DNA from: Actinomycetes bacterium
GTDB lineage: Bacteria; Actinomycetota; Actinomycetes; S36-B12; UBA5976
NCBI GenBank assembly: GCA_021814565.1
Contig: JAKAIC010000012.1
Span: forward strand, 1-33,705
Length of the DNA: 33,705 bases
Direction of reading: 5' to 3'
Of this stretch, positions 17,334-18,438 are shown in pieces; the first letter of the stretch is position 1; every line of letters starts with the position of its first letter. The notes under the pieces were generated by a model that made no database searches, was not told the origin of the DNA, and saw only the letters and a program-made list of their open reading frames with translations. The translations under genes and the position numbers were made by a program.

Positions 17334-17409
17334 GGGGCTGTAGCGCAGTTGGTAGCGCGCTTCGTTCGCATCGAAGAGGCCAGGGGTTCGAATCCCCTCA
17401 GCTCCACCA
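17334..17409 (+). tRNA. tRNA-Ala (anticodon CGC), CCA encoded
   Basis: The 76-nt sequence folds as a cloverleaf. The acceptor stem is GGGGCTG with CAGCTCC, including the G3-U70 wobble pair that is the alanine identity element. The D-arm is GCGC/GCGC. The anticodon stem CTTCG/CGAAG carries loop TTCGCAT with anticodon CGC. The T-arm is AGGGG-TTCGAAT-CCCCT. Discriminator A and CCA are encoded. It decodes GCG alanine codons. It directly precedes the abortive-infection-like locus, so it may mark an integration site, although no repeated tRNA 3' end was spotted nearby. Confidence 0.97.
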
Positions 17410-17420
17410 CTGGGTCTTAT

Positions 17421-17546
17421 GTAAACTAGGACTTCTCCCACAGGTGTACGCAGGCTCACCTGACGACGGCGCAGCCGTGTATGGTTTACCCCGACAGAGC
17501 CCCTGCCAAGCCTCTCCACGATGCTCAAATGCGCAGGGGCCTTCTT
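17421..17546 (+). ncRNA. Putative structured ncRNA upstream of Abi_2/AbiF-like gene
   Basis: Between the tRNA and the HEPN gene there is no open frame but ordered pairing. GTAAAC (17421-17426) can pair with GTTTAC (17484-17489), enclosing hairpin CAGGTG/CACCTG (17441-17446 with 17457-17462) and hairpin ACGGC/GCCGT (17466-17470 with 17474-17478). These are followed by a terminator-like hairpin. Abi_2/AbiF genes are known to be preceded by a conserved structured RNA (the abiF RNA motif), which fits this position. Possible -10 boxes (TTATGT or TAAACT, 17418-17427) would start the RNA at or inside the outer stem, so the GTAAAC pairing is tentative. Membership of the motif has not been tested. Confidence 0.5.
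17499..17546 (+). terminator. Terminator-like hairpin between ncRNA and Abi_2 gene
   Basis: GCCCCTGC (17499-17506) is perfectly complementary to GCAGGGGC (17533-17540), followed by CTTCTT. The 26-nt loop is long. It lies 15-62 nt before the Abi_2 start codon. The RNA-terminator-toxin layout is the arrangement used by RNA-antitoxin systems, where partial read-through expresses the protein. Confidence 0.55.
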
Positions 17547-17560
17547 ACGTTCGGAGTGCG

Positions 17561-18438
17561 ATGAGCGTGAAGCCCTGGCTCAGCCTGGACGAGCAGGTCG
17601 CCTTGCTGCAGGGCCGTGGGCTGATCGTGAGCGACGCCGCCGCCTGCCGCACCTTCCTGCAGCGGATCGGCTACTACCACCTGTCTGGGTACGGTCGGTA
17701 TTTCCAAGTTGACCCCGCCCGAGGAGATAACAGTTTCCGGTCAGGCACGAGGTTCGAAGATATCTCAGAATTGCAGGTGCTGGACTCGCAATTGCGCCTG
17801 TATGCCTGGGCCCACTGGCTGATGTTGAACTGTCATTGCGAACCGGCTTTGCGTATCGGTTTGCTGAGTTGTTTCGAGCGCCGGGCGCATTGTGGCATTC
17901 CACCAGTTTCAGCACCGCGGGATCGTCGACGACCCCGATTCACGAACTCGTGCTTGCCGACCTCGACAAGGCCAAACTGCCATTCATCATCCGGCACCGG
18001 AATAGTCGCGGCCAGTACCCGGATCTACCGGTATGGGTGGCAGTTGAAGCGCTGAGTTTCGGTACGCTCTCGCGTGCAATCGAACACTGCGCCGAAGCTG
18101 ATGTCCGCAAGCACCTTGCCAACGACCTGAATGTCGCGCAGCAAGGTTTCTCTTCGCAGATCCGCGCGTTCGTGACGCTAAGAAACGCTTGCGCTCACAA
18201 CAATCGCCTCTGGAACGACGTGGCCAGGATTCAGGCCTCGGTGCCAAATAACCTGCTGCACCGAGCAAAGAAGCGTGTCGGCAACTTCAACTCAAACAGC
18301 CAGTATCAGGTGCTCGTTGCACTTGCGCAGTTCCTCTCCGGACCTGCCAAAGCACAGGAATTCATGTCCGACGTTGATCAGCTATTGGCAACCAATGACA
18401 CCTTTCGCGCTGGCGTGATGAACCCACGGTCATACTGA
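17561..18438 (+). pseudogene. Abi_2/AbiF-family HEPN abortive-infection protein, disrupted by a frameshift
   Basis: Abi_2 proteins are HEPN-fold RNases linked to phage abortive infection. The first part (ATG 17561, GGAG Shine-Dalgarno 4-5 nt upstream) reads MSVKPWLSLDEQVALLQGRG, then CRTFLQRIGYYHLSGYGRYF and LDSQLRLYAWAHW, typical Abi_2. Near 17805-17821 homology passes to another frame: ADVELSLRTGFAYRFAELF, then LPVWVAVEALSFGTLS and the HEPN motif RNACAHNNRLWN (R at 18181, H at 18196). It ends at 18438. Joining the frames with a 1-nt deletion restores the usual spacing between the LR and VE residues. The shift lies by a GGGCCC run (17808-17813). Composition (lower GC, more AAT/AAC) differs from neighbours, suggesting transfer. 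A sequencing error cannot be excluded. Confidence 0.75.

Follow-up and report, generated by a model that had tools for sequence, protein, structure and literature searches.

The abiF RNA and the AbiF protein form a demonstrated type III toxin-antitoxin system that has been linked to Cas13 (PMC12373285, PMC12737573, PMC12165695), and what the earlier note on the present locus had stated of AbiF-type proteins, their RNA partners, their toxin-antitoxin function and their tie to Cas13 is borne out by this literature. In the pair AbiFCd-RCd22 of C. difficile, the RNA RCd22 neutralizes AbiF in trans via direct binding (PMC12373285), and PDB entry 8VZ6, which corresponds to PbAbiF-AbiFr, has been cited as an AbiF-ncRNA complex (PMC12737573). 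Phage PhiTE was reported to escape the ToxIN system with a copied antitoxin RNA, a strategy described as ToxI mimicry (PMC3475682). Phage tRNAs, in turn, evade defences that cut tRNAs (PMC10264068, PMC11555353).

The locus studied here is located in a stretch of 33,705 nucleotides, referred to as the window, from a draft genome of 2.0 Mb in 156 contigs that is 97.7% complete. Since this genome contains two WhiB genes, it is considered actinobacterial, and the G+C content of 66% agrees with the high-GC actinobacterium that had been proposed as the host. The locus (Table 1) shares with AbiFCd-RCd22 and PbAbiF-AbiFr the RNA family and an Abi_2 protein with the HEPN R-x4-H motif, and its RNA is likewise found directly upstream of the gene and on the same strand. 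However, RCd22 holds two RNA motifs whereas the RNA of the window holds one, and the toxin gene of the window is frame-broken.

Table 1. Features of the abiF RNA locus in the window
Feature	Position	Strand	Remark
tRNA-Ala (anticodon CGC)	17334..17409	+	Precedes the RNA by 91 nt; also present in the sister species
Lineage-specific spacer containing the upstream stems of the earlier note	17413..17496	+	Without evidence of structured RNA
abiF antitoxin RNA with extended stem	17497..17545	+	RF03085 match at 17502-17538
AbiF (Abi_2) gene, 5' part	17561..17800	+	First frame; Pfam match
AbiF frame break (frameshift)	17797..17815	+	Frame switch in the alignment to intact homologues
AbiF (Abi_2) gene, 3' part	17815..18438	+	Second frame; carries the HEPN motif RNACAH

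The gap of about 150 nt behind the tRNA gene and the strong hairpin at about 17499-17541 in front of the Abi_2 gene, both noticed earlier, are present. This hairpin had been regarded as terminator-like. It does fold strongly (z = -3.6, equalled by none of 200 shuffles), with its stem paired in the window, but it is not merely a terminator: because Rfam assigns it to family RF03085, the supposed terminator is the RNA of interest. The match to the covariance model, which had been suggested as a check, spans the full length of the model (1-37) and reaches 51 bits, compared with a gathering score of 37; it ends 5' of the gene start, at 17538. The structured abiF RNA expected in the gap is thus present as a hairpin of 37 to 49 nt, and not as the ordered stems further upstream. 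The letters of these stems (CAGGTG/CACCTG, ACGGC/GCCGT and GTAAAC/GTTTAC) exist, but they were ruled out as part of the abiF RNA, since the stretch 17421-17490 showed no excess folding (z = -1.3, equalled by 19 of 200 shuffles) and blastn matched it to none of the approximately 440 loci compared. The whole gap from tRNA-Ala to the gene gave a z value of -0.7 against shuffles. Similarity to the sister species stops at 17412, and the tRNA is common to both, whereas the flanking genes tested are not. Integration of the module directed by the tRNA was rejected, given that no stretch of 14 nt or more from the 3' end of the tRNA recurs in the window and that the sister species shares the tRNA alone. 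Matches to permuted tmRNA and mascRNA in the window were weak, below cut-off, and are ascribed to chance. A search for a sigma-70-like promoter ahead of the abiF RNA was negative, although this says little for an actinobacterium.

The gene behind the RNA was correctly recognized as encoding an AbiF-type HEPN protein, as evidenced by its Abi_2 matches and the motif RNACAH, which is unbroken at 18181-18198 in the second half of the protein. What the earlier note missed is a frameshift. Both protein halves match Pfam family PF07751 (Abi_2), each in a different frame, and intact actinobacterial homologues span the two halves, with the frame switch falling between them in the alignment; in the present sequence, the gene is therefore disrupted. 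As no intact reading frame of the toxin exists in the sequence, the locus is not a complete toxin-antitoxin pair, and of the RNA-antitoxin locus that had been proposed the abiF RNA in front of an AbiF gene stands, whereas an intact toxin does not. The second half also matches PDB entry 8vz6, annotated as an "Abi family protein", and intact AbiF homologues are present in other actinobacteria. The G+C content of the gene (17561-18438) is 58%, compared with 66-67% in its neighbours, which suggests a recent acquisition.

Among 99 related genomes, the abiF RNA was detected in only one other, that of a member of the same family but another genus (G030). All 49 letters of 17497-17545 are identical there, the flanking DNA bears no relation to that of the window, and a search of this genome for Abi_2 was negative. 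Within the class, 7 of 395 sampled genomes, including that of the window, had an abiF RNA match. A search of genome contigs with a piece of the AbiF protein of the window returned no relatives, whereas the DNA pattern of the RNA did give matches. In bacterial genomes this RNA-core pattern occurs at 119 places or more, chiefly in Bacteroidales and often together with AbiF. Of 39 genomes searched in which the RNA has no AbiF gene beside it, 12, G030 included, contain no Abi_2 at all, and solo abiF RNAs are consequently not exclusive to phages. Such chromosomal RNAs in genomes devoid of any Abi_2 gene were seen at several Bacteroidales loci (L033, L051, L075 and L116). Some bacterial solo RNAs in Abi_2-free genomes may be prophage copies.

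Virus contigs provided at least 44 matches to the RNA-core pattern, and 42 of the 44 records lack Abi_2; the two that contain it served as positive controls of the Abi_2 search. In 50 further virus records retrieved with related patterns Abi_2 was again not detected, resulting in 0 of 92 in total, and no toxin remnants were found across 105 records comprising viral records and named phages, some of which may be fragments. There were 253 distinct viral contexts among the matches listed, and inspection of the flanking DNA placed AbiF next to the RNA in only 2 of them. As the pattern scans fix the core of the RNA, the viral and bacterial counts are lower bounds and not unbiased, and conservation of the core is not independent evidence. 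At least 16 of 20 short virus loci checked pass the Rfam cut-off.

The RNA was also found in 13 named phages, none of which has Abi_2, namely, the mycobacteriophages LittleE, Lolly9, Bromden and MrMagoo, the T4-like phage Acj61, the cyanophages S-SZBM1 and S-CREM1, Salicola phage CGphi29, T7-like Aeromonas and Roseobacter phages, Arthrobacter phage Mimi and Rhizobium phage Pasto. The Rfam cut-off for RF03085 is passed by 11 of the 13 and missed by Mimi and Pasto. A stretch of 42 nt in the solo RNA of LittleE matches the RNA that accompanies AbiF in the actinobacterium Gordonia effusa. On plasmids of Pseudomonadaceae and Rhizorhabdus, the AUGCC...GCAC variant known from phages precedes its cognate Abi genes; the variant of the Aeromonas phage had no match in E. 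coli genomes. In the T7-like phages (L204, L205, L208 and L210), the solo RNA lies in gaps around the scaffold and capsid genes and not in tRNA arrays, at similar positions in Aeromonas, Roseobacter and Rhizobium phages.

A clear association emerges between the solo RNAs and tRNA genes. Of 193 solo RNAs with a stem, 108 of which belong to a single flank cluster, 71 have a tRNA within 30 nt, whereas 3.75 would be expected if they were placed randomly in this DNA. In each of the 71 cases, RNA and tRNA share a strand, and the distance is typically 3-8 nt. When flanks were grouped by single-linkage clustering, 11 of 63 groups were tRNA-adjacent, compared with at most 2.4 expected. Among the bacterial pattern loci, only the window has a tRNA within 400 nt (the tRNA-Ala, 91 nt upstream of the core). 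The 3' ends also differ: of 58 bacterial RNAs linked to AbiF, 57 have a T-run behind the stem, whereas this is the case for 8 of the 64 solo RNAs that are directly followed by a tRNA. RNase P, by cutting at the 5' end of the next tRNA, could release the array copies.

The toxin-free viral RNAs are maintained, since compensatory pairs are kept in both stem and loop. Such changes, for which the earlier note had proposed to check related loci, were found in 174 distinct viral RNAs. The inner pair (positions 8/24) is formed in 173 of these, compared with 89.8 expected when the two sides are dealt randomly, and A-U, U-A, G-C and C-G are all represented; part of this set comes from scans that fix the inner pair, but a scan with both sides free gave one non-pair only. 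For the loop pair (15/19), on which the scans set no constraint, the counts are 105 C-G, 66 U-A and 3 U-G, whereas most other loop letters were imposed by the search patterns and do not count as independent evidence. In the outer stem the letters change freely while pairing is kept, with at least five consecutive pairs in 181 of the 253 contexts compared with 51.5 expected.

Another example of a toxin-free copy is provided by an 88.8-kb contig (L158) in which 47 letters are identical to 17497-17543 of the window, in unrelated surroundings and without a toxin gene. The region around this RNA (L212, phage record G487) contains 33 tRNA genes on the same strand, with the RNA at the end of the array. 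An RtcB RNA ligase is encoded directly downstream, and proteins with TROVE (Ro60-like) and HD_4 domains are also present. The closest proteins are those of actinobacterial phages, with RtcB matching that of a Mycobacterium phage at 56% and an exonuclease that of a Rhodococcus phage at 37%. RtcB is also found beside the tRNA array and solo RNA of MrMagoo. The genes for RtcB, HD_4 and TROVE proteins (L212, 8481-10587 and 16144-17919) near the array and the abiF RNA may represent an RNA-repair island.

The explanation that we consider likely is that 17497-17545 is an AbiF antitoxin RNA before a frame-broken AbiF gene and that the solo copies of phages are antitoxin mimics, with which phages probably switch off AbiF. 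According to this model, which is built on sequence comparison, the solo RNA would be transcribed upon infection with the tRNA array or with a late transcript, and within arrays it would probably be released by tRNA processing at the next tRNA, without a terminator. It would then bind the presumed AbiF of the host and block the HEPN site, so that AbiF would fail to abort the infection. In the host of the window, the RNA may still guard against incoming AbiF although its own toxin is broken. Several observations fit the mimic explanation less well: solo RNAs also occur in Bacteroidales genomes without Abi_2, two of the named phages remain below the Rfam cut-off, more than half of the stem-bearing solo RNAs are from one flank cluster, and AbiF in the real hosts of the phages is presumed.

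A more conservative view, which we hold to be possible but rather doubtful, is that the window contains an ordinary AbiF type III locus with a toxin that is intact in nature, the frameshift having been introduced by sequencing or assembly and the copies elsewhere, in phages or as orphans, having no bearing on this locus. The well-kept RNA, HEPN motif and protein halves, together with the fragmented draft state of the genome, would agree with it; yet the frame is broken as sequenced, and the identical solo RNAs in G030 and the phage contig are left unexplained. It is unlikely that the phage copies are terminators, 3'-end stabilizers or tRNA-array markers unrelated to AbiF. Although the hairpin lies between genes and in many phages looks like a terminator, 77 of the 193 solo RNAs having TTT behind the stem, a terminator needs neither a conserved loop nor a compensatory loop pair, the letters are identical to those of the known partner of AbiF, and the array copies mostly lack a T-run, where termination would moreover cut off the next tRNAs.

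Slightly less probable still is that solo copies are decaying leftovers of AbiF modules after toxin loss. The window, with its RNA and broken toxin, seems to be losing the toxin, and G030 has the RNA alone, but toxin loss would not explain why unrelated phages have the RNA at 3-8 nt from tRNAs, strict compensatory pairs would not persist without a toxin, and the 105 records hold no toxin remnants. Least probable of these alternatives, and very unlikely in our view, is that the solo RNA serves another, unrecognized phage protein, such as a remote HEPN or other effector, as part of a toxin-antitoxin pair or regulator of the phage's own. Sequence domain searches miss remote folds, and many neighbours are hypothetical proteins; however, the neighbouring genes differ completely among carriers (capsid, rtcB, tRNAs, homing endonuclease), and there is therefore no consistent partner protein.

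Under the mimic explanation, the phages resemble the pseudo-ToxI case of PhiTE, in that they possess a copy of a type III antitoxin RNA of the host but not its toxin. One escape phage acquired that RNA from the host locus by recombination (PMC3475682). Pseudo-ToxI differs in its toxin family, its RNA fold and its repeat expansion under selection (PMC3475682), whereas the abiF RNAs are natural single complete copies, spread over numerous phage lineages and frequently placed within tRNA arrays. The solo RNA of S-CREM1, an Rfam match between tRNAs (L211), was reported before as an abiF sRNA, as a single match with an unconfirmed role (PMC9964418; reviewed in PMC12197685), and that report (PMC9964418) did not connect it with a lack of AbiF, with tRNA arrays or with other phages. 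It is the only toxin-free phage abiF RNA in the openly searchable full texts; subscription literature may describe this class. The locus of the window represents a type of system already known, here with its toxin broken, and the toxin-free phage RNAs are probably what is new.

The arrays carrying the RNA are the same as those implicated in defence evasion (PMC10264068, PMC11555353), with RtcB in L212 and MrMagoo, but the array member considered here is an RNA inhibitor of a ribonuclease and not a tRNA. There appears to be an even chance that phage tRNA arrays are composite anti-RNase islands that combine replacement tRNAs, the repair ligase RtcB and a 37-nt solo AbiF antitoxin that RNase P releases in place of a terminator, with exchange of the RNA between phages and hosts; such exchange would account for the identical RNA in the window, a second genus and an actinophage-like contig. 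If so, the fact that the RNA travels with tRNAs and RtcB would make tRNA a likely target of AbiF. That AbiF cuts tRNA is a guess drawn from this company and from analogy to the collateral tRNA cleavage by Cas13a (cited in PMC12373285). Should the mimic explanation hold, a natural and widespread phage RNA that silences AbiF would be for this toxin what pseudo-ToxI is for ToxIN. It would also be an RNA-only counter-defence against AbiF as the presumed ancestor of Cas13, and phage tRNA arrays, which have been a matter of debate for decades, would thereby gain a second function.

Two further arrangements were observed in bacteria. Three tandem abiF RNAs in a member of Ignavibacteriales (L112) and two in a member of Bacteroidales (L110), spaced by about 135-146 nt, precede AbiF and form small antitoxin arrays. 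On plasmid pT75-VIM (CP113227.1, 71845-75889; L446), an Abi family gene and an abiF-like RNA are located within a type I restriction-modification operon, where the methyltransferase gene lies on one side and that of the specificity subunit on the other.
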